This document shows, piece by piece, positions 9,615-61,661 of a stretch of 64,000 nt of DNA; positions within the stretch are counted from its first letter, which is position 1; each line of letters begins with the position of its first letter. The notes under the pieces were generated by a model that saw only the letters and a list, made by a program, of their open reading frames with translations, did no database searches and was not told the origin of the DNA. This stretch comes from Amycolatopsis regifaucium. Its GTDB lineage: Bacteria > Actinomycetota > Actinomycetes > Mycobacteriales > Pseudonocardiaceae. The DNA is taken from assembly GCF_001613935.1 (NCBI RefSeq), contig NZ_LQCI01000034.1, forward strand, positions 659,031 to 723,030, written 5' to 3'. Made by a program: the position numbers and the translations under genes.

Positions 9615-9678
9615 CGCATTTCGTCCTCTAAATGCGGTTCTTGCGCGCGCAAAGACCGCATACAGAGGACGAAATGCG
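9615..9678. repeat. Family B dispersed hairpin repeat, copy 1
   Basis: The 5' arm is CGCATTTCGTCCTCT-AAATGCGG, the 3' arm CCGCATAC-AGAGGACGAAATGCG. The arms pair over about 24 bases with two mismatches. The centre, CTTGCGCGCGCAAAG, is itself almost symmetric, so the whole 64 bp could fold into one long hairpin. It lies 8 bp after the murB stop codon. Six related copies occur elsewhere in the window. Confidence 0.9.
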
Positions 9679-9820
9679 GGTAGCCGGAACAACCAGGCGG
9701 AGGCCCCGCGCGTCTACCCAGTGAGGGGCGAGGGTGAGTTCCGTCGCCGCGGGTAACGTCGGAGAGGTCCCCAGCGCTGAGCGGGTAGGTACTCGCATGG
9801 GGGTCAATGGGAGGTTCACG

Positions 9821-10999
9821 GTGATCGAACGGCGCACGGTGTTCAAGGCCGCGCTCGCCGCGGGAGCGGCCATGCTGGCAGCTGCCTGCTCCAGCGAAGA
9901 AGGCGGCAACGCCAAACCGCAGGGCAGTGGTGGCGAAGGAGAGTCCTCCGCGCCCCCGGTCGCGAAGATCACCGCCGAGCCCGCCGTCGACGCCAAGGAC
10001 GCGTCCGTGGTGACGCCGGTCGTGGTGAAGGTCGCCGACGGCAAGCTCACCGAGGTCAAGGTCACCGGCGAGTCCGGCAAGGACGTCAAGGGCGAACTTT
10101 CCGCCGACGGTCTCACCTGGACGGCCTCCGAGGTCCTCGGCTACGGCAAGACGTACACCTACGCCGCCAAGGCCACCGGCAGTGACAACAAGACCGCCGA
10201 GCTCAAGGGCACGTTCACCACGGTCAAACCGGCCAAGGAGGTGCGCGCCACGCTGAACCCGACCGACGACGCCGAGGTCGGCGTCGGCATGCCGATCAGC
10301 GTGAAGTTCGCGTCGCCGGTCAAGGACAAGGCGGCCGCCGAGAAGGCGCTCAAGGTGAAGACCGACAAGGACGTCGAGGGCTCCTGGGGTTGGCTGTCGG
10401 ATACGCAGGTCGACTGGCGGCCCAAGGAGTACTGGCCCGCCAACATCACGGTCAGCGTCGAAGCGAAGCTCTACGGCGTCGCGCTCGGCGGCGGCGCGTA
10501 CGGCAAGGCCGACGTCACGACCAAGTTCAAGATCGGCCGCAACCAGGTGGTCAAGATCCACACCCCGGACCACGTCATGAAGGTCTACCGCGGCGGGGCC
10601 GAGTCGGCGAGCTACCCGTGCTCGAACGGGCTCGACGGGGACGTCCAGCGCAACACCCCCAACGGCACGTTCATCGTGATGACGAAGGAGCCGATGGCGC
10701 GGTTCGACAACGCGCGCTACGGCTACACCAACGTCAACAAGAAGTGGTCCTGCCGGATCTCGAACAACGGCGAGTACATCCACGAGAACCAGGACAACGC
10801 GGCCAACATCGGCAAGGCCAACACCTCGCACGGCTGCGTGAACCTGCTCGAAGCGGACGCGAAGAAGTACTTCGACTCGGCGATGATCGGCGACCCGGTC
10901 GAGATCACCGGTTCGAAGCTGGGCAGCCCGACCAAGTCGGACGTCAAGAACTGGTTCTACGACTGGAAGTCCTGGAAGGCCCTGTCCGCGATCAAGTAG
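9821..10999 (+). CDS. L,D-transpeptidase, lipoprotein type
   Basis: A 392-residue exported enzyme forming 3-3 peptide cross-links in peptidoglycan. GTG 9821 is chosen for its GGGAGG site 6 nt upstream; longer in-frame starts exist at 9734 and 9797. The N-terminus is a twin-arginine-like lipoprotein signal (ERRTVFKAALAAGAAML with lipobox LAAAC). Two immunoglobulin-like domains follow, then the YkuD catalytic domain with HGCVNL (catalytic Cys at about residue 339) and an upstream histidine in GEYIHENQ. The C-terminal extension FYDWKSWKAL is typical of LdtMt2-like enzymes. The closest mycobacterial positional equivalent is Rv0483 (LprQ). Beta-lactam sensitivity would be expected only for carbapenem-type drugs. 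Confidence 0.93.
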   Translation: MIERRTVFKAALAAGAAMLAAACSSEEGGNAKPQGSGGEGESSAPPVAKITAEPAVDAKDASVVTPVVVKVADGKLTEVKVTGESGKDVKGELSADGLTWTASEVLGYGKTYTYAAKATGSDNKTAELKGTFTTVKPAKEVRATLNPTDDAEVGVGMPISVKFASPVKDKAAAEKALKVKTDKDVEGSWGWLSDTQVDWRPKEYWPANITVSVEAKLYGVALGGGAYGKADVTTKFKIGRNQVVKIHTPDHVMKVYRGGAESASYPCSNGLDGDVQRNTPNGTFIVMTKEPMARFDNARYGYTNVNKKWSCRISNNGEYIHENQDNAANIGKANTSHGCVNLLEADAKKYFDSAMIGDPVEITGSKLGSPTKSDVKNWFYDWKSWKALSAIK

Positions 11000-11036
11000 C
11001 GAGCGGCTCGTGGCCATCATGTACTGGGGAAGGTGA

Positions 11037-11073
11037 GGTGGATTTCTGGTCATCCAACGTCCCGAAATCCACC
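11037..11073. terminator. Hairpin after the L,D-transpeptidase gene
   Basis: Ten-base arms GGTGGATTTC and GAAATCCACC enclose a 17-base loop, 37 bp after the stop codon. There is no following T-run, so termination activity is only inferred from position. Confidence 0.5.
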
Positions 11074-11255
11074 CAGTCGATGCCCTCGACCCGCGCCGAG
11101 ACACGCCACGTTTGCCTTACCGTCAAGAAACGCTCTCGGCTCAAGGTCGAGGCGCAACGATCCCCCGCCATCGCGAGCGAGCGCGCCGGCCCCGGTCCGC
11201 GCCAACCGTCATCGCCACTCACGACCGCCTTGGCGAAAACCCATAAAGTGCTGGC

Positions 11256-12068
11256 ATGAAGACCGAAGTAGTCGGCTACGGCGGGACGCGGATCGGCCTG
11301 TGGGTCGAGGGCGCCGAGAACACCCGTCCGATCGTGTTCGTGCACGGCTGGGCCCAGTCCGCCAGGGCCTGGGCGCCCCAGCTCGCCGATCCCGCGCTGT
11401 CCGAGCGGTTTCGCCTGGTCGCGATGGATCTGCGCGGGCACGGGGACTCCGAAGCCCCCTCCGCCGGCTACGACGACCCCCGGGTCTGGGCCGAGGACCT
11501 CGCCTCCGTGCTCGACTTCGCCGGTGAAAACGCGATCGTCGTCGGCTGGTCGTATGGCGGTTTGGTGATCACGGATTACCTCCGCGTGCACGGTTCCACA
11601 CGGCTCGGCGGCGTCGTACTTGTGGGCGCGATCACAGAAATCGGCAAGAATCGTCCGGGCGGGAAGGTCGGTCCCGCCATGCGCGAAGCCATCCCGGCGG
11701 TGCTGTCGGACGATCCAGCGGTCGCCATTCCGGCGTTGGTGCGGTTCAGCCAGCGGATGACCGCCTCGCCGGTGTCGGGGACGCTGACCCAAGGCCTGCT
11801 CGGCGCCAGTCTCGCGACGCCGCCTTCGGTGCGTTCCGCGTTGTTCCGGCGCGACATCGGCAGCGAGGACGTACTTCGCGATTTGGACAAACCGACCCTG
11901 ATCGTCCATGGTCTCGCGGACGCTGTGATCGATCCGACGTCCGCGGAGTACGCGGCCGGGAAGATTCCGGGGGCCGTCGTGCGTTGGCTACCTGAGGTGG
12001 GGCATCTCCCGTTCGCCGAAGTGGCGGAGGAGTTCGGTGGCCTGCTGCGCGGGTTCGCCGATCAGTAG
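11256..12068 (+). CDS. Alpha/beta-fold hydrolase
   Basis: A 270-residue soluble hydrolase. The fold and catalytic triad are visible: oxyanion segment VFVHGWAQSARAW, nucleophile elbow VVGWSYGGLV (serine near residue 97), an acid in VHGLADAVIDP, and histidine in EVGHLPF near the C-terminus. The family includes esterases, lipases and haloperoxidase-like enzymes, and nothing in the sequence fixes the substrate. It starts at ATG 11256 and is 21 bp upstream of mshA, so it may share its transcript. The 256-bp gap before it holds one hairpin and no convincing reading frame. Confidence 0.85.
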   Translation: MKTEVVGYGGTRIGLWVEGAENTRPIVFVHGWAQSARAWAPQLADPALSERFRLVAMDLRGHGDSEAPSAGYDDPRVWAEDLASVLDFAGENAIVVGWSYGGLVITDYLRVHGSTRLGGVVLVGAITEIGKNRPGGKVGPAMREAIPAVLSDDPAVAIPALVRFSQRMTASPVSGTLTQGLLGASLATPPSVRSALFRRDIGSEDVLRDLDKPTLIVHGLADAVIDPTSAEYAAGKIPGAVVRWLPEVGHLPFAEVAEEFGGLLRGFADQ

Positions 12069-12089
12069 GACTTCAGGAGTGTTGACCAG

Positions 12090-13394
12090 GTGACGTTCCC
12101 TCTGTACGGGTTCGATGCCGCGCCCAGGCGCGTCGCGGTGCTGTCGTTGCACACCTCTCCGCTGGAACAGCCGGGTACCGGTGACGCCGGTGGGATGAAC
12201 GTCTACGTGAGCCAGACGGCCACCGAGATGGCCCGCCGCGGTGTCGAGGTCGAGGTGTTCACGCGGGCCACGTCCTCGGATCAGCCGCCGGTGGCCGAGC
12301 TGGCGCCCGGCGTACTGGTGCGGCACATCCCGGCCGGGCCGTTCGAGCCACTGGGCCGCGACGAGCTGACGGCGCAGCTGTGCGCGTTCACCGCCGGGGT
12401 GCTGCGGGCCGAGGCCTTCCACGAGCCCGGTTACTACGACCTCATTCATTCGCATTACTGGCTCTCCGGCCAGGCGGGCTGGCTCGCCCGCGACCGTTGG
12501 GGCGTGCCGCTGGTGCACACCGCGCACACCCTGGCCAAGGTCAAGAACGCCGCGCTGGCCGAAGGCGACACCCCCGAACCGCGCACCCGCGTGATCGGCG
12601 AGGAGCAGGTCGTCGCCGAGGCGGACTGCCTGGTCGCGAACACCCGCGTCGAGGCCCGCGAACTGATCGAGCTGTACGACGCCGACCCGCACGCCGTGCA
12701 CGCCATTCCGCCGGGTGTCGACCTCGACCGCTTCACACCGGGTTCGCAGTCGGCCGCGCGCCGGGCGCTGGAGCTGCCGCAGGACGCGATCGTGCTGGCC
12801 TTCGCGGGCCGGATCCAGCCGCTGAAGGCACCGGACGTCCTCCTGCTGGCCGCGGCCGAAATGCTGCGCGAACGGCCGGAGCTGGCGTCGCGGCTGGTCG
12901 TGCTGATCGTCGGCGGGCCGTCCGGGAACGGACTGGAGCAGCCGCAGGCCCTGCGTGAACTGGCCGTCTCCCTCGGCATCGAGCGGCAGACCCGGTTCAT
13001 GCCGCCGCAGCCGGGCGCGGCGCTGGTCGAGGTCTATCGCGCGGCCGACATCGTCGCCGTGCCGAGCTACAACGAGTCGTTCGGGCTCGTCGCCCTCGAG
13101 GCGCAGGCCTGTGGGACGCCGGTGATCGCGGCCGAGGTCGGCGGGCTGCCGGTCGCGGTCCCGCACGGCGTTTCGGGGCTGCTGGTTCCTTCGCACGATC
13201 CGAAGGACTGGGCCGGCGCGCTCGCGAACGTCGCCCTGCGGCCCGGCTGGCGTGCCGAACTTTCGGCGAACGCCGTCGTGCACGCGCAGCGGTTTTCCTG
13301 GCGCCGCACGACGGACCGGCTGCTCGACACGTACGCTCAAGCGACCGGCGCGTTCCGGCGTGCCCTCGAACAGCGCGCGGAGGTGGCGGTTTGA
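12090..13394 (+). CDS. mshA: D-inositol-3-phosphate glycosyltransferase (mycothiol biosynthesis)
   Basis: A 434-residue GT4-family, GT-B-fold enzyme that transfers GlcNAc from UDP-GlcNAc to 1L-myo-inositol 1-phosphate, the first step of mycothiol synthesis. Seen: the N-terminal acceptor-domain motif [21 protein letters not shown], which is diagnostic of Msh[13 protein letters not shown], and the C-terminal UDP-sugar domain with [12 protein letters not shown] and the EX7E-type [16 protein letters not shown]. Start GTG 12090 has AGGAG 10 nt upstream. Mycothiol is the major thiol of actinobacteria, which supports the taxonomic assignment. The stop overlaps the next start, so expression is coupled. 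Rv0486 is the mycobacterial counterpart. Confidence 0.97.
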
Positions 13395-13906
13395 CGCTCG
13401 ACGAGATTTTGCAGTCCTCTTTGGACAACGCGGAGCTGAAGTACGACAAACGTGGTGAGGGAAAGTACTTCGTCACCTTGCCCGGTACCAAGAAACTGCA
13501 GACGAATTGCTGGCTGGTCGCCGGGGATCACGCTTTCGCCGTCGAAGCCTTCGTCTGCCGCCGTCCCGATGAGTCCCATGCGGACGTTTACCGCTTTTTG
13601 TTGCGGCGCAACGCGAAGCTGTACGGCGTGCACTACACGGTGGACGCGATGGGCGACATCTACCTGGTCGGCCGGTTCGGCCTGGACACGGTGACCGAGG
13701 CCGAACTGGACAAGATCCTCGGGCAGGTGCTGGAAGCCGCCGACGGCGACTTCAACACCCTGCTGGAACTCGGATTCGCCGAATCGATCAAACGTGAATG
13801 GGACTGGCGGGTTTCGCGTGGCGAATCACTGGCGAACCTGCAGGCTTTCAAGCATCTCGTGGAACCTTCGAATGGACACGAACCAGGAGCCTTGACCGAC
13901 TCGTGA
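13391..13906 (+). CDS. YbjN domain-containing protein
   Basis: A 171-residue protein starting at TTG 13391, overlapping the mshA stop by 4 bp. It has the type III secretion chaperone-like YbjN fold: an N-terminal helix ([19 protein letters not shown]) followed by beta strands ([36 protein letters not shown] split over several strands) and C-terminal helices. The segment [13 protein letters not shown] closes the protein. The mycobacterial equivalent Rv0487 also follows mshA. YbjN proteins are linked to stress responses and motility in enterobacteria, but the role here is unknown. Confidence 0.85.
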
Positions 13907-13973
13907 CCCGGACGGTGCAACGGCGCCGGGTTCCGCTCCGTCTCTCTCCGCAACACTGGAGGGAGACGGTTTG

Positions 13974-14891
13974 ATGCACAAGCGATGGAGATGGGTCGCC
14001 GCCGCCGGGATCGCGCTGGCGCTCGCGGGCTGCTCGGCGAACGACTCCGGCGAGAAATCCGCCGCGCAGCCGATGTCGGCGGACGGGCAGGCAGCGCCGA
14101 ACCAGGGCGCGCCGAACAAGGAGAACGGCGACAGCGCCGGGAAAGCGGGCCAGCAGAAGGCGCCGGTACCCGTCGGGCAACCGGGGCTCGCCGACCGCAA
14201 GCTGGTGCGCACGGCGAACCTGGAGCTCACCGCGCCGAACGTGGGCGACGTGATCTCGCAGGTGCGCGTCATCACCCAGGGCGCCGCCGGCTACACCGGA
14301 CAGGAAAGCACCCAGGAGAAGCGGGCGTCGGTCAACGTCGTCGTCCCCTCGGATCGCCTCGACGGTGTGCTCGACCAGTTGGGAAAGCTGGGCAAGCAGG
14401 TCAAGCGTGAGGTCACCGCGACGGACGTGACCGAGCAGATGGTCGACGTCGATTCGCGGCTGGCCACCCAGCGGGCGAGTGTCGAGCGCATCCGCGCGCT
14501 GCTCGCGAGGGCGACGTCGGTGTCGGAGATCGCTTCGGTCGAGAGCGAGCTGACGAGCCGCGAAGCCGAACTCGAGTCGCTTCAGAAACGTCGAGAGAGC
14601 CTCGCCGGAAGTGTCGCCATGTCGACAATATCCCTGCAGGTGAAGGCGGAAACGGTCGCGGCGAAGGAGGAATCGCAGAGTGGGTTCTTCGGCGGGCTGG
14701 CCGGCGGCTGGGACGCGTTCCTGACCTTCGGCGGTGGCCTGCTGACCGTGATCGGCGCGATGGCGCCGTTCCTGCTGGTCTTCGGGATCCCTGCGGCCGC
14801 GCTGGTGTGGTGGCTGCGCAAGCGGCGCCGCTCGGCGACGCCCGCGATGGCGACGGCGTCCGATCTGCCGTCCGCGCCACCGCTGGACTGA
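13974..14891 (+). CDS. DUF4349 lipoprotein
   Basis: A 305-residue envelope protein. ATG 13974 follows a GGAGGGAG site at about 13958-13965. A lipoprotein signal (VAAAGIALALAGCSAN, lipobox LAGC) is followed by a low-complexity Ala/Gln/Gly linker, the DUF4349 domain (KLVRTANLELTAPNVGDVI, later VVVPSDRLDGVLDQL), a coiled-coil region with VESELTSREAELESLQKRRESL, and a C-terminal membrane helix with a basic tail RKRRR. The lipid anchor and the membrane helix place the domain outside the membrane. The function of DUF4349 is unknown. Strong hairpins follow 23 bp after the stop. Confidence 0.87.
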   Translation: MHKRWRWVAAAGIALALAGCSANDSGEKSAAQPMSADGQAAPNQGAPNKENGDSAGKAGQQKAPVPVGQPGLADRKLVRTANLELTAPNVGDVISQVRVITQGAAGYTGQESTQEKRASVNVVVPSDRLDGVLDQLGKLGKQVKREVTATDVTEQMVDVDSRLATQRASVERIRALLARATSVSEIASVESELTSREAELESLQKRRESLAGSVAMSTISLQVKAETVAAKEESQSGFFGGLAGGWDAFLTFGGGLLTVIGAMAPFLLVFGIPAAALVWWLRKRRRSATPAMATASDLPSAPPLD

Positions 14892-14913
14892 ACGAGGCAT
14901 GGAAAAGAACTAG

Positions 14914-14961
14914 GCGGGACGGCTCGAGGGAGGGGGGAGTCGCGATCTCGAGCCGCCCCGC
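14914..14961 (+). terminator. Hairpin after the DUF4349 gene, G-rich loop
   Basis: The arms GCGGGACGGCTCGAG and CTCGAGCCGCCCCGC form a 15-bp stem with one mismatch around an 18-base loop that contains GGGGGGAG and GAGTCGCG. It starts 23 bp after the stop codon. There is no clear T-run. It is probably a terminator, but see the second hairpin, with which it can pair. Confidence 0.65.
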
Positions 14962-15020
14962 TGAAGTTCCCGCCAGGGTGGACCCGGTGACGAGGGGGAT
15001 GCCAACGGGGCCGGCGGGCG

Positions 15021-15052
15021 CCGCGACTCGGCAGGGGGGAGACGAGTCGCGG
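15021..15052 (+). ncRNA. Second hairpin with G-rich loop, possible structured leader
   Basis: Perfect 10-bp arms CCGCGACTCG and CGAGTCGCGG flank the loop GCAGGGGGGAGA. The 5' arm is complementary to GAGTCGCG (14937-14944) in the loop of the preceding hairpin, so a kissing or alternative structure is possible. No known RNA family was recognised; calling it an RNA element is an inference. Confidence 0.35.
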
Positions 15053-15248
15053 TCGTCACCCGCGTCGAGCCGGGGAGTGCGTGGAATCCGGCCGCGCGGG
15101 ACGTAGTCAACCTGTCAGATCTCCACCTGTAATCACAAGACTACCCGTTACTCCGTTGGAGTGAACTTCGCAAACCGGGATAACGGAGTGCAGTTCGAAT
15201 TTCGCGGATTCGCGCTTGTTGGCAGCCCGTCTTCTGGACGAGTGAGGT

Positions 15249-15264
15249 GTTACCCATGGGTAAC
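15249..15264. promoter_or_regulatory. 16-bp palindrome upstream of gpmA, operator candidate
   Basis: GTTACCCATGGGTAAC is a perfect inverted repeat about 74 bp before the gpmA start. Its length and symmetry suit a dimeric regulator such as a TetR- or LacI-type protein. No regulator is encoded beside it, so the cognate protein is unknown. Confidence 0.45.
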
Positions 15265-15337
15265 GCACTCTCCGTAGAAGAACGGGCAATTCCAGCCCTC
15301 TGACCGGCGCTTCCGCTCACTCTGGCAGGCTGGGCGC

Positions 15338-16087: not shown

Positions 16088-16089
16088 CT

Positions 16090-16154
16090 CGCGTTTCGTC
16101 CTCTGAACGCGGTAGTTCGTATTACGGACCACCGCGTTTAGAGGACGAATTGCG
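16090..16154. repeat. Family B dispersed hairpin repeat, copy 2
   Basis: The arms CGCGTTTCGTCCTCTGAACG and CGTTTAGAGGACGAATTGCG enclose a 25-base centre. The element fills the whole gap between two convergent genes: it begins 2 bp after the gpmA stop and ends at the base before the stop codon of the lipoprotein gene on the other strand. It would serve as a shared terminator. Confidence 0.9.
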
Positions 16155-17075
16155 TCAGGGGAGGGCCTGGACCAGCTCGATGTTGGCGGCCTTCCAGCCT
16201 TCAGGGAGACGCTGCAGGCGCAGGACGATCGGCAGGTTCTTCTCCTGGGCCTTGCCCTGGGCGTCGACGACGTTCGTGGTCGCGTAGAGCAGCACGCTCG
16301 CCTTGTCGTCCACGAGCTCCATCACCGCCGCGATCGACTTCGGATCCATCGACGACTTCGTGCCCGCGCTCCGGATCTGGGTCACCTGAGCCGCTTTGCC
16401 CTGCTGGAACTGGGTCAGCAGCGGTCCGGTCGCGACGGATTCGTAGCGAGCGTAGGTGCCTTCCGGATCGGCGGGATCCACATGCAGCAGGGTCTCCGCG
16501 ATCCGCAGACCGCCGTCGCGGGCGGAGTCCCGGGTCACCGCGATCGCGCGGTCGCCCGCGCCCGGCTTCTCGGGCGGCAGCTGGACCCGCGTCGGGTTCA
16601 CCTTGATCTCGCCGATCCGCCAGCGGTCGCCCTCGCGCGTCGTCGAGAGCAGTACCGACGCGATGCCCTTGCTGGTGGCGGCCGCCCGGGTGCTGTTCTG
16701 GTCGACCACCGTCAGCACCTGGGCCTTGTCGGGGGTCTGCTCGACGGCTGCCGAGACGATCACCCGCGTGACCAGCTTGACCGGCTCCGGCGAGTTCCGG
16801 ACCGTGGTCAGCAACTTCGCCACCTCTTCGCGCGCGGCGGGGGCCAGGTGTTCGTTGGTCGCCTTCTCGTGCGCCGGCAGGGCCGTGCTGTCGTAGGAAA
16901 ACACCGCTTCGATGGCCGTCTTCACCGCTCCGAGCACCGAAGCGGTCTGTGCCGGGTTGACGAGGGCGAGGTTCGCCGGTGGGCTCTCCGGCTCGGGCCG
17001 CGCGGCGCCGGAGACCGTGGTGGTGCAGCCCGCGAGCGCGAGCAGCACGGCGAGCCCTGCCCAGCGGCGTTTCAC
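16155..17075 (-). CDS. Putative lipoprotein of unknown function
   Basis: A 306-residue exported protein from GTG 17075, whose first codon overlaps the stop of the upstream regulator gene by 4 bp. The signal peptide RRWAGLAVLLALAGCTTT has a lipobox (LAGC). The mature part alternates helices and strands, with two repeated NTF2-like or Mce-associated-like segments (GDRWRIGEIKVNPTRVQLPP; GWKAANIELVQALP), each ending in a strand containing tryptophan. No named family is recognised with certainty. Tight coupling to the HTH regulator suggests the pair acts in one response. Confidence 0.75.
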   Translation of the reverse strand: MKRRWAGLAVLLALAGCTTTVSGAARPEPESPPANLALVNPAQTASVLGAVKTAIEAVFSYDSTALPAHEKATNEHLAPAAREEVAKLLTTVRNSPEPVKLVTRVIVSAAVEQTPDKAQVLTVVDQNSTRAAATSKGIASVLLSTTREGDRWRIGEIKVNPTRVQLPPEKPGAGDRAIAVTRDSARDGGLRIAETLLHVDPADPEGTYARYESVATGPLLTQFQQGKAAQVTQIRSAGTKSSMDPKSIAAVMELVDDKASVLLYATTNVVDAQGKAQEKNLPIVLRLQRLPEGWKAANIELVQALP

Positions 17076-22718: not shown

Positions 22719-22740
22719 CGGCCTCGGGGAGGATGCCGGA

Positions 22741-24611: not shown

Positions 24612-25427
24612 ATGAGTGTGATCGCGGTCCTCGGTGCGGGAAAGATCGGAGAGGCCCTGCTCTCGGGCCTGCTGCACGGCGGGCACAGCCCGGATGACCT
24701 GCTGTTCACCGAACGCTATCCGGCGCGCGCGGCCGAGCTGACCGAGCGCTACGGCGTTCAAGGGGTCACCGTCGCCGACGCCGCGCGCCGGGCGGACGTC
24801 CTGGTCGTCGCGGTCAAACCGCAGGACATCGACCCGGTGCTGGCCGACCTCGCGCCGTTGCTCGGCAAGGAGTCGCTGGTGGTCTCGCTGTGCGCGGGCC
24901 TGCCGACCGCCCTGTACGAGCGCAGGCTGGCCGAGGGCGTCCCCGTGGTGCGGGTCATGCCGAACACGCCGATGCTCGTCGGAGAGGCCATGAGCGCGGT
25001 CTCCGCGGGCGCGCACGCGACCGCCGAGCACATCGCGGTGGTGAAGGACCTGCTTTCGCACGTCGGGCAGGTCGTGGAGGTGCCGGAGTCGCAGCAGGAC
25101 GCCGTCACGGCGTTGTCCGGCTCCGGGCCGGCGTACTTCTTCTACCTGGTCGAGGCCATGATCGACGCCGGGATCCTGCTCGGCCTGCCGCGTGCGCTCG
25201 CCGGTCAGCTGATCATCCAGTCGGCGGTCGGGGCGGCGAAGATGCTCGCGGAGTCCGACGAACACCCGGTGCTGCTGCGCGAAGCCGTCACTTCGCCCGC
25301 CGGAACGACCATCAACGCCATCCGCGAACTGGAGAAGCACGGCGTCCGCGCGGCGCTCCTGGCCGCCATCGAGGCCGCGAAGGACCGCTCGACCGAACTC
25401 GGCGCCGCCCACGACCCCCGCGTTTAG
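24612..25427 (+). CDS. proC: Pyrroline-5-carboxylate reductase
   Basis: A 271-residue enzyme catalysing the last step of proline synthesis, reduction of 1-pyrroline-5-carboxylate with NADPH. Seen: Rossmann motif IAVLGAGKIGEALLSGLL at the start, VVAVKPQDI, VVRVMPNTPMLVGEAMSAV, and the family signature region LSGSGPAYFFYLVEAMIDAGILLGL with SPAGTTINAIREL in the C-terminal dimerisation domain. ATG 24612 is the start that gives the expected N-terminus. It matches Rv0500. Its final two codons and stop (CGC GTT TAG) lie inside a family B repeat, so the element has replaced or defined its 3' end. Confidence 0.96.
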   Translation: MSVIAVLGAGKIGEALLSGLLHGGHSPDDLLFTERYPARAAELTERYGVQGVTVADAARRADVLVVAVKPQDIDPVLADLAPLLGKESLVVSLCAGLPTALYERRLAEGVPVVRVMPNTPMLVGEAMSAVSAGAHATAEHIAVVKDLLSHVGQVVEVPESQQDAVTALSGSGPAYFFYLVEAMIDAGILLGLPRALAGQLIIQSAVGAAKMLAESDEHPVLLREAVTSPAGTTINAIRELEKHGVRAALLAAIEAAKDRSTELGAAHDPRV

Positions 25428-25482
25428 TCCTCTGAATGCGTAGTTCGACGCCGAACCACCGCATTCAGAGGACGAAATGCGT
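25420..25482. repeat. Family B dispersed hairpin repeat, copy 3 (contains proC stop)
   Basis: The 5' arm is CGCGTTTAGTCCTCTGAATG, the 3' arm CATTCAGAGGACGAAATGCG; the centre GTTCGACGCCGAAC is partly symmetric. The TTTAG of the 5' arm is read as the last bases and TAG stop of proC. Other copies have TTTCG at this position, so the variant base creates the stop. Confidence 0.9.
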
Positions 25483-28528: not shown

Positions 28529-28593
28529 CGCATTTAGTCCTCTGAATGCGGTAGTTGCCCAGCGCAAGGACCGCATTCAGAGGACTAAACGCG
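28529..28593. repeat. Family B dispersed hairpin repeat, copy 4
   Basis: The arms CGCATTTAGTCCTCTGAATG and CATTCAGAGGACTAAACGCG flank a centre with TTGCCCAGCGCAA. It sits between two convergent genes. Both arms carry the A variant (TTTAGTCC / GGACTAAA), a compensatory pair of changes relative to copies with CGTCC/GGACG, which argues that pairing is preserved. Confidence 0.9.
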
Positions 28594-47228: not shown

Positions 47229-47241
47229 GAAGCTGCTCACT

Positions 47242-51445: not shown

Positions 51446-51510
51446 CGCATTTCGTCCTCTGAATGCGGTAGTCGCCCCAAGCAAGGACCGCATTCAGAGG
51501 ACGAAACGCG
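51446..51510. repeat. Family B dispersed hairpin repeat, copy 5
   Basis: The arms CGCATTTCGTCCTCTGAATG and CATTCAGAGGACGAAACGCG begin at the base after the rhomboid TAG. The centre GTCGCCCCAAGCAAGGACC contains no clear inner palindrome. The next start codon, of ccdA, is 101 bp further on. The element probably separates the rhomboid gene from the ccdA-resB-ccsB transcript. Confidence 0.9.
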
Positions 51511-53980: not shown

Positions 53981-53985
53981 AGGTC

Positions 53986-54957: not shown

Positions 54958-55037
54958 CCGTCACCGCTGCACGCGAGCCGACTACCGTCAATACTTGAGG
55001 TAATGGGGGAAGACGTGCGCGGAGGAGGATTTCAGCG

Positions 55038-56375
55038 GTGACCGGACCCAGCGAAGAATCGGCTCCTGGCCACCCCGAACCGACGGAGAGCGTTCAGCCC
55101 TCGGAGTTGTTCTCCGAGGACAGGACGGACTCGGCGCCGCATCCGAACGCGAGCGGTTTCGAAGCCGAGCCGACGCAGGTCGTCCAGCCGCAGTACCCGC
55201 AGCAGGCCCCGCAGGCGCAGTACGCGCCGCAGCCCGCCCAGCAGCCGCCACTGCCGCAGCCCTCGCACGGGCAGTACCCGCAGCCGTACGACCAGAACCT
55301 GCCCCCGCTGCAGCCGCAGCAGGCGCCTCAGCAGCCTCAACAGGTCCCGTATCCGCCTCAGCAGCAGTACGTGCCCCAGCAGCCGGTCCAGCAGCCCGCC
55401 GTGCCGGGGCTCCCGCAGCCGCAGGGCAGGCACGCGCTCCCGGACGAGCTCGCCACCGCGAGCCTGGTCAAGCCGCAGAAGCGCAAGCCGCAATCGGGTT
55501 GGCGCAAGGCCGTCTACGTGGGCACCGGCAAGCTCATCAACCCGGGGGAGAGCCCCGCCGACACCCGCAAGCGCGAGCTGATCGCGCAGATCAACCAGCC
55601 GCTGCGCGGGTGCTACAAGATCGCGATGCTGAGCCTCAAGGGCGGTGTCGGCAAGACCACCACGACCACCACGCTGGGCTCGACGTTCGCGTCGTTGCGC
55701 GGTGACCGCGTCGTCGCCGTCGACGCGAACCCGGACCGCGGGACGCTGTCGCAGAAGATCCCGATCGAGACCACCGCGACCGTGCGGCATCTGCTGCGGG
55801 ACGCGGACAAGATCACCAGGTACAGCGACGTCCGCTCGTACACCTCGCAGGGCGGGAGCCGGCTGGAGATCCTCGCCAGCGAGCAGGACCCGGCGGTGTC
55901 GGAGGCGTTCTCCGAGGACGACTACCGGCGGACGGTCAACCTGCTGGAGCACTTCTACAACATCGTGCTCACCGACTGCGGGACCGGTTTGATGCACTCG
56001 GCGATGAAGGGCGTCCTGGACGTCGCGGACGCGCTGGTGGTGGTCTCGTCAGGCTCCGTGGACGGCGCGCGCAGTGCTTCGGCGACGCTCGACTGGCTTG
56101 AGGCACACGGCTACGGCGACCTGGTCAAACGGTCTGTCGCGGTGATCAACTCGGTGCGCCCGAAGGGTGGCTCCGTCGATCTCGACAAACTCTCCGCGCA
56201 CTTCGGCGCACGCGTCCGGTCGGTCTGCCGGATTCCGTTCGACCCGCACCTGGAAGAGGGCGCCGAGATCGAGCTGGACCGGCTCCAGGCCGACACCCGG
56301 CTGGCGCTGCTGGAACTGGCCGCCACCGTCGCCGACGGTTTCGGGGGCCAGCAGTACCGCCAGGTCCAGCCCTAG
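55038..56375 (+). CDS. MinD/ParA-family ATPase with Pro/Gln-rich N-terminus
   Basis: A 445-residue protein from GTG 55038. The first 150 residues are proline/glutamine-rich and probably disordered, with repeated QQAPQ and PQPQ patterns. The ATPase domain has Walker A SLKGGVGKTTTTTTLGSTFA, the switch I-like DANPDRGTLSQKIP and switch II-like NIVLTDCGTGLMHSAM. The layout, Pro-rich N-terminus plus MinD-like domain, resembles Rv0530 and the ESX-1 protein EspI. It may use ATP to place or regulate a membrane partner, but no partner is known. It converges on the next gene with a 4-bp overlap of stop codons. Confidence 0.87.
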   Translation: MTGPSEESAPGHPEPTESVQPSELFSEDRTDSAPHPNASGFEAEPTQVVQPQYPQQAPQAQYAPQPAQQPPLPQPSHGQYPQPYDQNLPPLQPQQAPQQPQQVPYPPQQQYVPQQPVQQPAVPGLPQPQGRHALPDELATASLVKPQKRKPQSGWRKAVYVGTGKLINPGESPADTRKRELIAQINQPLRGCYKIAMLSLKGGVGKTTTTTTLGSTFASLRGDRVVAVDANPDRGTLSQKIPIETTATVRHLLRDADKITRYSDVRSYTSQGGSRLEILASEQDPAVSEAFSEDDYRRTVNLLEHFYNIVLTDCGTGLMHSAMKGVLDVADALVVVSSGSVDGARSASATLDWLEAHGYGDLVKRSVAVINSVRPKGGSVDLDKLSAHFGARVRSVCRIPFDPHLEEGAEIELDRLQADTRLALLELAATVADGFGGQQYRQVQP

Positions 56376-56554
56376 TCCTTGTCCTCGTCTTTACTCTTGC
56401 GCTGCTGCTCACCGAGCTTGCGCAGGAAGTCGGGGTCGTCGTCCGGGGCCAGTGTCGGCCGCGACGAGGGCACCCCGACGCGCTCGATCCCGAACGCGCG
56501 CCACAAGACAACGGCGACGGTGAGCGCTCCGATGGCCGCGAGCAGATAGATCAT
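56372..56554 (-). CDS. 60-residue single-pass membrane protein
   Basis: A small protein (MIYLLAAIGALTVAVVLWRA) with one N-terminal helix and a charged tail ending GEQQRKSKDEDKD. An AAAGGGA site precedes ATG 56554. The stop overlaps that of the convergent MinD-like gene by 4 bp. No family is recognised, though comparable short proteins occur downstream of BldC in related genomes. It is probably co-directional with bldC but is separated from it by a terminator hairpin. Confidence 0.65.
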   Translation of the reverse strand: MIYLLAAIGALTVAVVLWRAFGIERVGVPSSRPTLAPDDDPDFLRKLGEQQRKSKDEDKD

Positions 56555-56643
56555 GCTCGGTCCCTTTCCGCGTGGAGGACGTTGCTCAGTCCCACGAGGC
56601 TAGCCTCTTTGCCGCGCGCGGGGGGACCTACGGATACCCCAAT

Positions 56644-56675
56644 GTGACGAAGGGCCGTTTGGAGCCCTTCGTCAC
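56644..56675 (-). terminator. Hairpin after bldC
   Basis: GTGACGAAGGGC and GCCCTTCGTCAC pair perfectly over 12 bp with an 8-base loop CGTTTGGA. It lies 28 bp after the bldC stop on the minus strand. A run of six T (minus strand) with CGCTTTTTTCGC sits just before it, between stop and hairpin. Confidence 0.75.
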
Positions 56676-56703
56676 CGGAGTCCCTTTTGCGAAAAAAGCG
56701 AGG

Positions 56704-56916
56704 TCAGACCTTGCGGGCGGGTTCGCTGGCGTCGGTGGTCAGCTCGGCGAGGAGCTCGTTCACTTCGGCCTCGCGGAACCGGCGGTGCCCACCGGGAGTG
56801 CGGATCGAGCCGATCCGGCCCGCGGTCGCCCAGCGGGTCACGGTCTTGGGGTCGACCCGGAACAGGGCCGCCACTTCGCCGGGGGTGAGCAACCTTCCGC
56901 CCATCGTCGCGGTCAT
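56704..56916 (-). CDS. bldC: Developmental transcriptional regulator BldC
   Basis: A 70-residue MerR-like single-domain DNA-binding protein: LLTPGEVAALFRVDPKTVTRW is the helix-turn-helix and GSIRTPGGHRRFREAEV the wing. The GGHRR wing and the DPKTVTRWA recognition helix are typical of BldC, which binds DNA cooperatively at direct repeats and controls the switch from vegetative growth to sporulation in Streptomyces. It starts at ATG 56916. There is no effector domain. Function in non-sporulating relatives is not established; here the developmental role is inferred by homology. Confidence 0.93.
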   Translation of the reverse strand: MTATMGGRLLTPGEVAALFRVDPKTVTRWATAGRIGSIRTPGGHRRFREAEVNELLAELTTDASEPARKV

Positions 56917-57165
56917 TTTCCGCCTCCTTCACGGTTCCAGTGCTAAACCGGAGGCGGGCCCAATGCCCGTCGTGCCGGGTAGCCAACGCGGCAATCGTTG
57001 CATCTCACCCGTCAGGTACTCGAACGGTTGTCCAATAGTAAAGAGCCCTTAAAGGGCAAAACCGACAAGCGAGACATGCGCTCCTCGGCCTGCCGGTCTT
57101 GTCACGGAGGTACGAAAAACGCGCCCTTGTCCGGCGAATCGGCGCATGACCCCTAAGGTGTAGCG

Positions 57166-57639
57166 GTGGACCAGGTGGATCGGAAGATCATCGCGGCATT
57201 GCGGGAGAACGGGCGGGCTACCTACGCCGACCTCGGCCGATCGGTCGGCCTCTCCGCCTCATCGGTGCACGAGCGGGTCGGCAAACTCGAAGCCGCCGGT
57301 GTGATCACCGGTTACCACGCCATGGTCGATCCCAGCACGGTCGGACTCGGGGTGACGGCGCTCGTCGGCATCCACCCCACCGACACCGCGACCGAAGACG
57401 ACGTCGCGGCCGCGCTGGGGGCCTTGGACGAGGTCGAAAGCTGCTACGCCGTCGCGGGCGACGAGGCCTTCGTCGTCAAGGTGCGGGTGGCGACCGTCGA
57501 CGATCTGGAGCGGACCCTCGGCAGGCTGCGGCGGATCCCCGGCGTCGGCCGGACGAACACCACCGTCGTGCTTTCCACCCGCTTCGAGGGACGGCCCAAC
57601 AACGCGGGTCTGGAGGACGGCCGCAACGGCAACGCGTAG
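57166..57639 (+). CDS. Lrp/AsnC-family transcriptional regulator
   Basis: A 157-residue regulator from GTG 57166. The N-terminal helix-turn-helix is DQVDRKIIAALRENGRATYADLG followed by VGLSASSVHERVGKLEAAGV; the C-terminal RAM (ligand-binding) domain covers about residues 65-145, with the loop VAGDEAFVVKVRVATV. Lrp proteins bind amino acids and control their metabolism. The cysteine synthase-like gene 300 bp downstream is a plausible target. The gap upstream, back to bldC, is 249 bp and contains GCCCTTAAAGGGC (57045-57057). Confidence 0.9.
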   Translation: MDQVDRKIIAALRENGRATYADLGRSVGLSASSVHERVGKLEAAGVITGYHAMVDPSTVGLGVTALVGIHPTDTATEDDVAAALGALDEVESCYAVAGDEAFVVKVRVATVDDLERTLGRLRRIPGVGRTNTTVVLSTRFEGRPNNAGLEDGRNGNA

Positions 57640-57650
57640 CCTGCGTTGAT

Positions 57651-57944
57651 GTGAGCGACAATCCGGAAACCGCCGATCACCTCGCCCGTGACCTGACGCT
57701 GTACGTACTGGCCAGGTTCCTCCTGGTCGGCGTCATCGGTGGCGGGTTGCTGCTGGTCAACGTCCCGCTGCTGGTCGCGTTGCTGATCGGCCTGGTCGTG
57801 GGGCTGCCGCTGGGTCTGCTGCTGTTCCGCCCGCTGAACGCGCGCGTGACCGCCGGACTCGCCCGCCGCAACGAAAAGCGCGCTCGCGCCCGTGCCGAAC
57901 TGCGCTCCCAGCTGCGCGGCGACCGGGTGGACGGGACAGCGTGA
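57651..57944 (+). CDS. DUF4229 small membrane protein
   Basis: A 97-residue protein from GTG 57651 with two hydrophobic helices ([41 protein letters not shown]) and a long basic C-terminal helix ([18 protein letters not shown]). This is the actinobacterial DUF4229 pattern, unknown function. It overlaps the next gene by 4 bp and lies 11 bp after the Lrp gene, so the three genes may form an operon. Confidence 0.75.
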
Positions 57945-59023
57945 GCCGGCTCCACAACCGCAGCTGGGTCCGCGAAGCCGTCCGCATCATCGAGGCCGAC
58001 GCGAACCGCAGCGCGGATACGCACCTGCACGTCTTCCCGCTGCCCGCGGAATGGGGCATCGACCTCTACCTGAAGGACGAGTCGGTCCACCCGACCGGCT
58101 CGCTCAAGCACCGGCTCGCGCGTTCGCTGTTCCTGTACGGCCTGGTGAACGGCCAGATCGGGCAGAACACCGTGCTCGTCGAGGCCTCCAGCGGCTCGAC
58201 AGCGGTTTCGGAGGCGTACTTCGCGCGGATGCTCGGGCTGCGGTTCATCACCGTGGTGCCGCGGAGCACCTCGCCGGAGAAGATCGCGCTCATCGAGTTC
58301 TACGGCGGCGAGTGCCACTACGTCGACCGGGCGCCGGACATGTACCCGGAGGCCGAGCGGCTCGCTTCGGAGTGCAACGGCCACTACCTCGACCAGTTCA
58401 CCTACGCCGAACGCGCGACGGACTGGCGCGGGAACAACAACATCGCCGAGTCGGTCTACGCGCAGATGCAGTCGGAGCGGCATCCCGTGCCGACGTGGAT
58501 CGTGGTCGGCGCCGGAACCGGTGGCACGAGCGCGACCTTCGGCCGCTACGTGCGCTACAAGCGGCACACCACGAAGATCGCTGTCGTCGACCCGGAGAAC
58601 TCGTCGTTCTACGGCGCCTGGGAGACCGGTGCGCTCGACTACGCGACCGGCATGCCTTCGCGGATCGAGGGGATCGGACGGCCACGTGTCGAGCCGTCGT
58701 TCGTGCCCGGCGTGATCGACGAGATGCTGCAGGTCCCCGACGCCGGTTCGCTGGCGGCCATCCGCCTGCTGCGCGAACGGACCGGGCACTGGGCGGGCGG
58801 CTCGACCGGCACGAACCTCTTCGGCGCGTTCACCCTGATCTCGCGGATGATCTCGGAAGGCCAGGCGGGCAGCGTCGTCACGCTGCTGTGCGACGGCGGC
58901 GAGCGGTACGCCAACACCTACTACGACGACGAGTGGCTGGCGCACAAGAACATCGACATCGCGCCCTATCTGGAGATGTACCGGGAATTCCTGGTGAGCG
59001 GGAAGTTCGCTCCGGAGATTTGA
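57941..59023 (+). CDS. PLP-dependent cysteine synthase-family enzyme (Cds1-like)
   Basis: A 360-residue fold-type II PLP enzyme from GTG 57941. The PLP lysine is in [14 protein letters not shown], the phosphate-binding loop is in [14 protein letters not shown], and the substrate loop is [20 protein letters not shown]. These match the Rv3684/Cds1 group, in which the M. tuberculosis enzyme acts as a cysteine desulfhydrase that produces H2S, rather than the O-acetylserine sulfhydrylase CysK. Which reaction occurs here is inferred from subgroup only. It is coupled to the DUF4229 gene. Four hairpins fill the gap to menA. Confidence 0.85.
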
Positions 59024-59057
59024 GCGGCCTACCTCAGGTTGACGGGATCACCAAAAG

Positions 59058-59200
59058 AGCAAGGGACCTTTGCTATCGCCTGGGGCACATTTAGTGGTCG
59101 CCTGGACGCTGAACCACTACAGGTAGTGGCCCCAAGCGCGAAACTCAAGGGATGAATGGGACGTTCATCCCGCTCACGCCGCCGAGGCCAGCGTGAGCGG
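59058..59200. repeat. Cluster of four hairpins between the PLP enzyme gene and menA
   Basis: Inverted repeats follow one another: AGCAA...TTTGCT (59058-59074, with AAGGGACC), CCACTAC/GTAGTGG (59114-59129, enclosed by TGGGGC/GCCCCA), GGGATGAA/TTCATCCC (59149-59171) and CCGCTCACGC/GCGTGAGCGG (59170-59200). The 240-bp gap separates two convergent genes. The first resembles the AAGGGGCCTTT core of family A. Confidence 0.75.
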
Positions 59201-59263
59201 CCGGAAGCGCATGACCGGTCCCATCGCGGCCGCACTGTGTCCGCATCAAAGGTCCGGTGACGG

Positions 59264-60133
59264 CTAAAGAGCGAGCGCGACCGTGGTCAGGATCGCCCAC
59301 CCCAGCATGGCGAATCCGGTGTCCCGCAACGCCGGGATCAGCGCCCGGCCCTGTTCACCGCCGCCGACGGCCTTGACCGACTTCAGCAGCAACGGCGCGG
59401 TCGCCCACCCCAGCAGTGCCCACGGCGTCACGAAGGCGAGCAGCACGCTGACGACGTACGGCACCGCGACCAGCACCAGGTAAAGCAGCCGGGTGCCCTT
59501 GTCGCCGAGCCGGGTGGCGAGCGTGCGTTTGCCTGCTTCGATGTCGGTCGGGATGTCGCGGAGGTTGTTGGCGGTCAGCACGCCGGTCGAGAACGAACCG
59601 ACGGCGACCGCGCAGCCGAACGCCGTCCAGCTGAGCTGTCCGGCTTGGACGTACACCGTACCCAGCACGCCGGCCAGTCCGAAGAAGACGAAGACCGCGA
59701 TCTCACCGAAACCGTAGTAGCCGTAAGGCTTTTTGCCGCCGGTGTAGAACCAGGCGCCGAGGATGCAGACCGCGCCCATCGCCAGTAGCCACCACAACCC
59801 GCTGATCGCGACGAGCACGAGTCCGAGGATCCCGGCGAGCCCGAGAGCCACGAGAGCCGCCGCCAGGACCGCCTTCGGCTTCGCGGCCCCGGAGCCGACC
59901 AGTCGCAACGGGCCGACGCGGTTCTCGTCGGTGCCGCGGATGCCGTCGGAGTAGTCGTTCGCGTAGTTGACGCCGACGATCAGGGCCAGCGAGACCAGGA
60001 GCGCGAGAACCGAGCGGGGCCAGGAGAAGCCGTCGAGCGCGACGGCCGCGCCGACCCCGGCGACCACCGGCGCCACCGCGTTGGGCAGCGTCCGCGGGCG
60101 CGCCCCTTCGATCCATTCACCAGCAGTCGCCAT
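59264..60133 (-). CDS. menA: 1,4-dihydroxy-2-naphthoate polyprenyltransferase
   Basis: A 289-residue UbiA-family membrane enzyme that attaches the isoprenoid side chain to dihydroxynaphthoate, making demethylmenaquinone. ATG 60133 is chosen (MATAGEWIEGARPRTLPNAV); the open frame extends back to 60214 into a family B repeat. The first Asp-rich motif is GVNYANDYSDGIRGTDE (NDxxD-type), and the second is NNLRDIPTDIEAGKRTLA. Eight to nine helices are visible. It corresponds to Rv0534c. It is the last gene of a leftward men cluster, though separated from menE by a small gene and a repeat. Confidence 0.95.
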   Translation of the reverse strand: MATAGEWIEGARPRTLPNAVAPVVAGVGAAVALDGFSWPRSVLALLVSLALIVGVNYANDYSDGIRGTDENRVGPLRLVGSGAAKPKAVLAAALVALGLAGILGLVLVAISGLWWLLAMGAVCILGAWFYTGGKKPYGYYGFGEIAVFVFFGLAGVLGTVYVQAGQLSWTAFGCAVAVGSFSTGVLTANNLRDIPTDIEAGKRTLATRLGDKGTRLLYLVLVAVPYVVSVLLAFVTPWALLGWATAPLLLKSVKAVGGGEQGRALIPALRDTGFAMLGWAILTTVALAL

Positions 60134-60180
60134 GCCGCCATTCTGGCCCTGGCCGATACCGGTCGGTACGTGGGGCTGCT

Positions 60181-60236
60181 CGCATTTCGTCCTCTGCCTG
60201 CGGCATCGAGTCACCGCGAGCAGAGGACGAAACGCG
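60181..60236. repeat. Family B dispersed hairpin repeat, copy 6 (shorter)
   Basis: CGCATTTCGTCCTCTGC and GCAGAGGACGAAACGCG flank a 22-base centre (CTGCGGCATCGAGTCACCGCGA). The inner GAATGCGG/CCGCATTC arm of other copies is lost. It ends one base before the stop codon of the small secreted protein gene (complement of CTA, 60237-60239). Confidence 0.88.
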
Positions 60237-60392
60237 CTACTTCACGTCGACGACGTCGTCGAGCGTCCAGGTGAGGGTGCCGCTGTTCGGCACGGCGATT
60301 TCCGGTTCGTCCGCCAGCGCGGGCCCGGCCAAAGCGACCAGGCCCATCGTGACGGCGGTGCAGGCCAATACTGTGCGTGTCCAGCGCGTCAT
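60237..60392 (-). CDS. 51-residue secreted peptide
   Basis: A small gene between menE and menA, missed because of its length. ATG 60392 reads MTRWTRTVLACTAVTMGLVA, a signal peptide with a cleavage site after LAGPALA, leaving a mature acidic peptide of about 24 residues starting DEPEIAVPNSG and ending DDVVDVK. No cysteines remain in the mature part, and it has no homologue I recognise. Its stop codon abuts a family B repeat. The role is unknown; a bioactive or wall-associated peptide is only a guess. Confidence 0.6.
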   Translation of the reverse strand: MTRWTRTVLACTAVTMGLVALAGPALADEPEIAVPNSGTLTWTLDDVVDVK

Positions 60393-60455
60393 GCTCAAGA
60401 CGTAAACCCGCGGGTAATGACTCTGTCAACAAAGTCCCAGTAATCGGTGGGAAAT

Positions 60456-61580
60456 TCACGACCTTAGTAGGAGATCCCGGACCGCCGCCCTGTCGACCTT
60501 TCCGGGGCCCCGCAACGGCAGTTCTTCGGTGAACTCGACCCGCTTCGGCGCGGCCGCCGCACCGGCCTCTTCACGGCACGCGGCGCGCAAGGAATCGACG
60601 TCGCAACCAGCGCCGACGACGAGCGCGACGACCGCTTCGCCCCACTCGGGATCGGGTACGCCGACCACGCACGCGTCGCGGACTCCGGGCTGCGCGATCA
60701 GTACCCGTTCCACGCTCGCGGCGGCCACCTTCACCCCGCCGGTGTTGATCATGTCGTCGATCCGCCCCAGGATCTCCAACCGCCCGTCGGGCCCCAGCCG
60801 TCCGCGGTCGGAGGTGCGGAACCGGCCCCCGTCGAACGCCTCCGCGGTCAGTTCCGGCCGGAGCCGGTAACCGTGCGCGAGGACGTCCCCGGCGACGCAG
60901 ACCCGCTCGTCGTCGAGTTCGATCCGGACGCCGTCGAGCGGTACGCCGTCGTACACGCAGCCGCTCGCCGTCTCGCTCATGCCGTACGCGGGCACGATCT
61001 TCACGCCCGCTTCGGCCGCGCGCTCCCGCAGGTCCGCGGTGGTCGCCGCGGCGCCGATCACGATGGCGTCGAACGCCCGGGCCGCGGCCAGTCCAGGCCC
61101 GGCATCGTCGAGCAGCCGCCCGAGCTGGGTCGGGACGAGCGCGGTGTAGCGCGGCCCGTCCAGCGCGAGGAGCGGCGCGGCGGCCTCGGCGAAGTCGTCC
61201 GGCCGGAAACCGGAGGCGGACAGCACGGCGGGCGTCGTCCCGGCCAGCAACGAGCGGACCAGCACCTGCAACCCGCCGATGTACTGCGCCGGAGTGGCGA
61301 GCAGCCAGTGCCCCGGCCCGCCGAGCCGCGCGTGGGTCGCGTTCGCCGACGCGGCCAGCGCGGCGGCCGAAAGCAGGACGCCCTTGGGCTCGCCGGTGGA
61401 CCCCGAGGTGGCGATGATCACCGCCGTCCCGGGCTCGGCCGGGAGTGTCGGCTCCATCGCGTCGCGAACGGCCTCCGACGCGTAGGGGAGGACGGCCGGA
61501 CCGCCGTCGAGGGCCCCGGCCAGTGCCGTGGTCAGCTCGGCGATCGACTCCGGACTCCCGTCCACCCGTACCGCACGCAT
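60456..61580 (-). CDS. menE: o-Succinylbenzoate-CoA ligase
   Basis: A 374-residue AMP-binding ligase that activates o-succinylbenzoate for MenB. It is shorter than typical ANL enzymes, as MenE of actinobacteria often is. Seen: P-loop IIATSGSTGEPKGVLLS, LLATPAQYIGGLQVLVRSLL, a substrate region VPAYGMSETASGCVYDG, TSDRGRLGPDGRLEILGRIDD and the catalytic lysine in RGPGKVDRAAV. ATG 61580 is the start. It corresponds to Rv0542c. The gap to menB holds a family B repeat. Confidence 0.92.
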   Translation of the reverse strand: MRAVRVDGSPESIAELTTALAGALDGGPAVLPYASEAVRDAMEPTLPAEPGTAVIIATSGSTGEPKGVLLSAAALAASANATHARLGGPGHWLLATPAQYIGGLQVLVRSLLAGTTPAVLSASGFRPDDFAEAAAPLLALDGPRYTALVPTQLGRLLDDAGPGLAAARAFDAIVIGAAATTADLRERAAEAGVKIVPAYGMSETASGCVYDGVPLDGVRIELDDERVCVAGDVLAHGYRLRPELTAEAFDGGRFRTSDRGRLGPDGRLEILGRIDDMINTGGVKVAAASVERVLIAQPGVRDACVVGVPDPEWGEAVVALVVGAGCDVDSLRAACREEAGAAAAPKRVEFTEELPLRGPGKVDRAAVRDLLLRS

Positions 61581-61597
61581 CCCGCCAGCCTACGTCC

Positions 61598-61661
61598 CGC
61601 GTTTCGTCCTCTAAATGCGATCGTTGCGCACGCAACTACCGCATTTAGAGGACGAAATGCG
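61598..61661. repeat. Family B dispersed hairpin repeat, copy 7
   Basis: The arms CGCGTTTCGTCCTCTAAATG and CATTTAGAGGACGAAATGCG flank a centre CGTTGCGCACGCAAC that forms its own hairpin. It lies 17 bp upstream of the menE start and 5 bp after the menB stop on the minus strand, so it follows menB. Confidence 0.9.

Follow-up and report, generated by a model that had tools for sequence, protein, structure and literature searches.

Seven hairpin copies at gene 3' ends

The window analyzed here is a stretch of 64,000 nucleotides (nt) of the Amycolatopsis regifaucium contig NZ_LQCI01000034.1 (positions 659,031 to 723,030 of the forward strand, assembly GCF_001613935.1), in which seven copies of one hairpin element lie dispersed behind genes such as murB and proC (Table 1). 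An initial annotation, made from the letters of the window, had described these copies as a family of dispersed hairpins. All seven were confirmed in the sequence, each being also recovered among the close inverted repeats of the window, and the coordinates stood for six of them, copy 3 beginning one base earlier than first given. The annotation was also right that every copy follows a gene 3' end, with gaps of 0 to 8 nt to the stop codon or an overlap with it. Copies 6 and 7 are located downstream of minus-strand genes. The short open reading frame (ORF) that ends at copy 6 was missing from an ORF list with a minimum of 100 amino acids, and the sequence adjoining it is similar in the three relatives shown.

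TABLE 1 Hairpin copies and associated features in the window
Feature	Position	Strand	Gap to stop codon (nt)	Context
Copy 1	9615..9678		8	Inverted pair of 22-bp units past murB (8542-9606, +); the gene after it encodes a YkuD domain on the same strand as murB
Copy 2	16090..16154		2	Past histidine-phosphatase gene (ends 16087, +); touches (0 nt) the end of a called minus-strand gene in convergent orientation (16155-17075)
Copy 3	25419..25481		Overlap	Left arm forms the last codons and TAG stop of proC
proC TAG stop	25425..25427	+		In copy 3 (left arm, as part of the TTTAG variant)
Copy 4	28529..28593		7	Past the end of an acyltransferase gene (28521, +); TTTAG/CTAAA compensated; end of the convergent HAD gene (28606, -) at 12 nt
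Copy 5	51446..51510		0	Past rhomboid-protease gene (ends 51445, +)
Copy 6	60181..60236		0	Shorter center; past stop of 51-amino-acid minus-strand ORF
51-amino-acid ORF	60237..60392	-		Ends at copy 6; signal-peptide-like start (by eye)
Copy 7	61598..61661		5	Past enoyl-CoA hydratase-like gene (ORF 61667-62713, -)

Folded as RNA, the seven copies reach -35.1 to -49.6 kcal/mol (both strands), compared to means of -14.5 to -16.8 kcal/mol for 200 mononucleotide shuffles per copy. The paired change in copy 4, which had been taken to suggest maintained pairing, is present, but pairing is not always kept, as the TTTAG of copy 3 faces GACGAA. Covariation among the seven window copies is weak, with 26 of 500 shuffles matching the observed score. 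A known RNA family was rejected, as Rfam gave no match at the gathering score either in the window or in 80 kb overlapping it.

Two inverted 22-bp units make up the element

Each arm of the element is a unit in its own right, a 22-bp imperfect palindrome with a consensus of about CGCRTTTMGTCCTCTGAATGCG that can form a stem of up to about 9 bp with a 4-nt loop. The end triplets of the unit and its G9-C14 pair are invariant or nearly so, and the left units of the window copies fold on their own, two of the seven giving 9 pairs and a 4-nt loop. The complete element consists of two inverted units that flank a variable center (19 to 21 nt in most of the collected pairs), which often lengthens the stem, and measures roughly 64 letters; the unit also occurs singly. 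Positions 9 to 15 were identical in 28 units of genome G000 (genomes and loci are given here by our G and L numbers), an identity that is partly built in, since the type filter already required ≤1 mismatch at these positions. Within the unit's own dyad, positions 5 and 18 switch in a complementary manner (T-A in 70 and A-T in 37 of 128), which represents few events because the switch tracks the dialects described below, and positions 4 and 19 gave 43 G-T cells, about as many as the column frequencies give.

Arms and centers were compared in 64 pairs from 17 genomes, which were left after unanchored pairs had been dropped (three rows) and duplicates merged. Watson-Crick pairs occupied 1,290 of the 1,408 arm cells. 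For genomes having more than one element, the proportion was 92.2%; 5,000 shuffles within genomes averaged 87.3% and reached at most 89.8%. Arm identity was 0.916 within one element versus 0.854 between elements of the same genome.

The family is restricted to one group of Amycolatopsis

A genome-wide search with a covariance model had been proposed in the initial annotation. Such a model and exact arm searches found further copies in A. regifaucium, whose genome comprises 8.27 Mb in 52 contigs, and the arm pattern found them in 18 genomes of relatives. In A. regifaucium, the model gave at least 150 hits, counted over both strands and corresponding to at least 75 sites. The genome contains 67 exact 15-mer arms, and the degenerate arm pattern YAGAGGACKAAAYGCG matches it exactly at 307 places, the reversed control at none. 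This pattern was present in 19 of 80 genomes from Amycolatopsis and in 19 of 390 from the wider taxonomic family. The 19 carriers are exactly the genomes with a MurB 91 to 100% identical to that of the window, the next best value being 79% (one of the 80 genomes, G018, gave no MurB match). Among the matches listed, all named records that bear a pair belong to Amycolatopsis, including A. orientalis, A. azurea, and A. keratiniphila. A wider scan gave at least 110 stretches, and the 80 of these listed by name comprised 65 from Amycolatopsis, 55 of them with a pair, and 15 from elsewhere, none with a pair. Among the genomes searched, the hairpin family is restricted to one Amycolatopsis group.

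Pairs follow stop codons and are not trailed by a U tract

Placement was determined for pairs of type A or B (the two dialects described below) in samples of 400 kb from each of five genomes of the group, with genes called by our own codon-usage caller and not taken from annotation. The 37 pairs were distributed over 19 convergent spacers, 15 spacers between two plus-strand genes, and 3 between two minus-strand genes, with none in a divergent spacer; in the same sample, 302 of 1,102 spacers of ≥40 bp were divergent, and strong hairpins, taken over all families, avoided such spacers (6 of 207 lay in one). (Clustering of the hairpins across families left a large cluster that still mixes families.) Thirty-two of the 37 pairs were ≤19 nt from a called stop codon, and the five more distant ones include copy 6, whose short ORF was missed by the caller. 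In the G000 sample, 46 of 55 loose unit matches were intergenic (the reversed control gave 8 matches), and none of 26 mismatch-free units was inside a gene.

What the initial annotation had suggested overall, a family of 3'-end hairpins with largely kept pairing, perhaps a nonautonomous repeat for which no mobilizing gene is seen, agrees with these data, but not in the form of a canonical intrinsic terminator with a U tract. That candidate was rejected, as no run of more than two T residues was present in the 10 nt past the stem in any of 56 flanks. For Streptomyces clavuligerus, 353 of 535 highly structured 3' ends are reported to be U-poor (PMC8269248), and a U-less hairpin end would be plausible for the transcripts here. 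The resemblance lies in a strong hairpin without a U-rich tract in a GC-rich actinomycete; a difference is that a repeated sequence family is not described in the part of that report drawn on here.

Related genomes carry different dialects at the same sites

Two dialects were distinguished by the core of the unit, A (GTCCTCT) and B (GTCACCT), with GTCATCT as an intermediate that is found in G026. The type labels tolerate one core mismatch, and the GTCATCT elements of G026 were thus scored as A; all elements of G015 and G063 were scored as B, and G013 was kept as a separate group. Dialect B arms numbered 145 in G063, 140 in G015, 58 in G026, and 0 to 17 in the other 77 genomes, while exact type A arms ranged from 2 to 359 per carrier genome; since the two search patterns are unequal in degeneracy, A and B counts are not strictly comparable. 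Dialect B is dominant in G063 and G015, whose low A counts are due to this dialect, and leads in the mixed genome G026, where 34 arms are A and 58 are B. In a tree built from 11 genes, G063 (2 A and 145 B) was placed as the sister of the A-rich G052 (169 A and 17 B) with a support of 1.00, and G026 as the sister of the A-rich G014 with a support of 0.965, G014 being represented by 5 of the 11 genes. The placement of G015 had a support of 0.153.

Occupied sites were compared between genomes through adjacent orthologous gene pairs, with divergent spacers excluded. G000 and G063 had 10 occupied sites in common, with 4 occupied in G000 only, 1 in G063 only, and 204 in neither (Fisher P = 1.9e-13). 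Ten of the 11 comparable occupied sites of G063 are thus also occupied in G000, and all ten carry A in G000 and B in G063. Across dialects, arms at the same site were no more alike than arms at different sites (0.690 versus 0.680). Element sites were also encountered in alternative states, namely, single units, near-empty spacers (4 to 5 nt between convergent stop codons), and unrelated hairpins, and at one site, species have either a pair, only one unit, or 4 nt. G002 is poor in copies, with 21 A arms, 2 B arms, and 46 weak covariance-model hits (best E value, 1.4e-14), and its nearest relatives in the tree (G034, G007, and G074) have 172 to 359 exact arms. One reading of the few weak copies is decay or loss of a maintaining activity, or else an unseen dialect; G063, which has its own dialect, likewise scored weakly with the covariance model (best E value, 3.4e-14).

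These patterns bear on the proposal that the elements are plain terminators under selection for pairing only, whose shared sequence is the relic of an old expansion and whose dialects arose by drift plus template-switch correction between arms. The pairs are indeed found at gene 3' ends, their arms match better within an element than across the elements of a genome, and G002 has few and weaker copies, as from decay, although an unseen dialect would look alike. Drift, however, should not carry many sites to one new sequence, and neither the sharp contrast in counts between the sisters G063 and G052 nor the identity of positions 9 to 15 in the G000 units, which the filter itself in part imposes, fits such a process well; we consider it improbable that the family is explained in this way.

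Least probable of the explanations considered is a molecular drive as for DNA uptake sequences, in which an import or recombination protein favors one core and the sites shift jointly with its preference. Uptake sequences are far denser than these hairpin copies, which speaks against such a drive. As described by Frye et al. 2013 (PMC3630211), uptake sequences of the Neisseriaceae form species dialects of a short motif, and inverted pairs of them are associated with terminators. This is a likeness to the Amycolatopsis sites, which are shared while their sequence differs. They differ in being common inside genes and in regulating transformation (PMC3630211), in contrast to the absence of mismatch-free G000 units from genes.

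A REP-like element possibly renewed in place

The reading that we favor, with a probability of roughly 0.6, is that of an element resembling repetitive extragenic palindromic (REP) sequences that is kept as a 3'-end hairpin without a U tract and is homogenized by an activity other than a detectable REP-associated tyrosine transposase (RAYT). It starts from the anatomy, the position, the restriction to 19 genomes among those searched, and the different dialects at shared sites; beyond these, we infer a role at RNA 3' ends and an activity that works in trans by copying or conversion and would not be a detectable Y1/RAYT transposase. The hairpin, transcribed after stop codons and often between convergent genes, would most likely mark or protect RNA 3' ends, either as a bidirectional terminator without a U tract (I-shaped-like) or as a block to exonucleases. 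The arm sequence common to the copies of one genome would be renewed in place, site by site, and such renewal would leave related species with different dialects at sites that they share. Single units and empty sites would be apparent deletion products. A more specific proposal, which we hold only tentatively and with some doubt, is that a trans-acting system other than a RAYT converts dozens of hairpin sites in each genome, in place, to the dialect of the species; a reader protein or hairpin-templated conversion would homogenize the two arms throughout the genome, with the site and at times the center persisting.

Several results weigh against renewal in place or against a role in RNA. Element sites are not fully stable: G000 and G076 had 9 occupied sites in common, with 7 in G000 only and 1 in G076 only; for G000 and G060, the corresponding numbers were 5, 7, and 0; and some element sites hold unrelated hairpins or nothing in other species. 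Centers compared across dialects retain a weak memory of the locus (0.321 at the same site versus 0.212 at different sites; 81 of 2,000 permutations), and the B elements at the sites of copies 3 and 4 carry long centers of their own, which indicates that whole elements were replaced there. In tandem elements (n = 18), the sense-strand mismatches were G-U in 12, A-C in 10, and other in 17 cases; as G-U and A-C are about equally frequent, nothing points to the RNA strand, and selection on the arms through this strand was rejected. Template-switch correction of quasi-palindromes could generate the matching of arms without selection.

A further point on this side is that no mover was found. The Y1 transposase domain of RAYTs (PF01797) had no match in the 80 Amycolatopsis genomes, the control being positive in 5 of 14 named genomes, and the check for a RAYT-type transposase proposed in the initial annotation was therefore negative. 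The IS91-type Y2 transposase domain (PF04986) likewise had no match in the 80 genomes, in a search whose control was silent as well. Autonomous copies were sought as genes bordered on each side by a unit at a distance of ≤200 bp, in the five samples of 400 kb and in those 77 of the 110 stretches from the wider scan that contain two or more units. The search listed eight unit-flanked genes, and six arm pairs with wider spacing were also examined. Nine proteins, from three of the eight flanked genes and from the six wider-spaced stretches, were searched against Pfam and gave a helicase, a GntR regulator, an asparaginase, a TetR regulator, a DUF559 protein, and four others; no transposase was among these nine, the remaining flanked genes being inspected by eye only. 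The earlier remark that no mobilizing gene is seen accordingly holds for PF01797 and for unit-flanked transposases in the stretches scanned. The DUF559 gene (endonuclease-like) lies between two inverted dialect B units in G026 (L310:422-1321), an arrangement that may be due to chance, as each of the two units is also at an ordinary gene 3' end.

The instability of sites is what would be expected of a nonautonomous mobile element, similar to a REPIN (two inverted REPs in one hairpin) or a miniature inverted-repeat transposable element, that is moved by an unrecognized transposase with a preference for gene 3' ends or existing copies; the dialects would then be insertion waves, with old copies deleted. 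Such an element would account for the variation from 2 to 359 exact A arms across the 19 genomes, the replacement of whole elements with B-specific centers at copies 3 and 4, the existence of single units and near-empty sites, the many G000 sites that are empty in G076 or G060, and the nesting of other hairpins in copies (at the copy 4 site of G049 and in L311). On the other hand, the coincidence of 10 of 11 G063 sites with G000 sites is above the expectation for free insertion, filled and near-empty sites compared by eye revealed no clean target-site duplication or insertion footprint, and the searches for PF01797 and for unit-flanked transposase genes were negative as described. We regard a mobile element of this kind as unlikely.

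Comparison with known repeat systems

The REP-like reading was also compared with described systems. The generic features of REPs are all found here, with a 22-bp palindrome in many copies that is mainly intergenic and lies downstream of genes near stop codons, and the two inverted REPs in one hairpin that define a REPIN are present as well. The REPs described by Di Nocera et al. 2013 (PMC3733652) are likewise palindromes of 20 to 40 bp in many copies with frequent inverted dimers, located mostly downstream of genes near stop codons and able to supply a TAG stop; in the two species shown there, most of the REPs that are between convergent genes are <20 bp from both stop codons, and GTAG REPs often provide TAG stops. 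The difference is that neither superfamily tag occupies its defining position in the Amycolatopsis units. Of 74 units, 2 had GTAG immediately on their 5' side (22 on the 3', inner side), and CGTC was immediately 5' in none and immediately 3' in 1, although a CGTC lies within the unit itself. CGTC REPs are reported to lack a dedicated transposase as well (PMC3733652). The words "Actinobacteria" and "Amycolatopsis" do not occur in the main text of that paper, and a literature search on Amycolatopsis repeats, REPs, and terminators, on actinobacterial REPs and RAYTs, and on REP concerted evolution gave, among the titles listed, none on this hairpin family.

REPINs and their RAYTs (PMC8049555) share with the present family the two inverted palindromes in one long hairpin, the mainly vertical inheritance, and the single units, which are regarded there as decaying remnants. 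They differ in the Y1 transposase domain, which was not detected in the 80 Amycolatopsis genomes, and a RAYT-driven REPIN was rejected on these grounds. In the REP orthoswitch (Nunvar et al. 2013, PMC3686654), a new REP class similarly spreads and partly displaces the old one in related strains; there, the process is linked to RAYT genes that have the new REP at their flanks, and the old copies decay, whereas in Amycolatopsis no RAYT was detected and the new type occupies the old sites. By the tests made, the hairpins behave like a REP dimer family but are neither GTAG REPs, CGTC REPs, nor RAYT-dependent REPINs. The family is ordinary in its anatomy; what is unusual is the lack of a detectable RAYT in the genus and the different dialects at shared sites.

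RAYT transposases account for the GTAG-type REPs; for the CGTC REPs, a known mover is already lacking. With 19 related genomes, shared sites, two dialect differences between sisters (G063/G052 and G026/G014), and the copy-poor G002, the copying or homogenizing of REPs without a RAYT becomes directly testable. If the hairpins do form RNA 3' ends, they would provide ready bidirectional end-forming parts for antibiotic-producing actinomycetes.

Other hairpins at or near the same sites

A second hairpin family (GCAATGAAGGGGCCTTTCATCGCAAA/TTTGCGATGAAAGGCCCCTTCATTGC) is present in the window at positions 3250 to 3314 and 4946 to 4992, with more copies in the 400 kb around it. Other repeated hairpins, with cores such as AACTCGCGTGATCA, GTGAGTGGCAAGGACGGTT, GGAGGATTTGGGACGTTC, and CTGAAGGACGCTTTCACCGC, occupy the same after-stop sites in the five 400-kb samples (L197 to L296) and in L067 to L086, and at some of these sites the species differ in which hairpin family is present. 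In L074 (the copy 4 site of G049) and in L311:302-519, a hairpin lies within the center of a pair, which looks like the insertion of one repeat into another. At offset 179997 of the G014 sample, a hairpin contains an N run surrounded by what we take, by eye, to be adapter-like sequence, probably an assembly artefact at a strong hairpin. A related palindrome type, CGCGTTTAGCCCGCTAAACGCG, differs from the main family in that single units of it lie in divergent spacers (offsets 368635 and 383294 of the 400-kb sample of G000).

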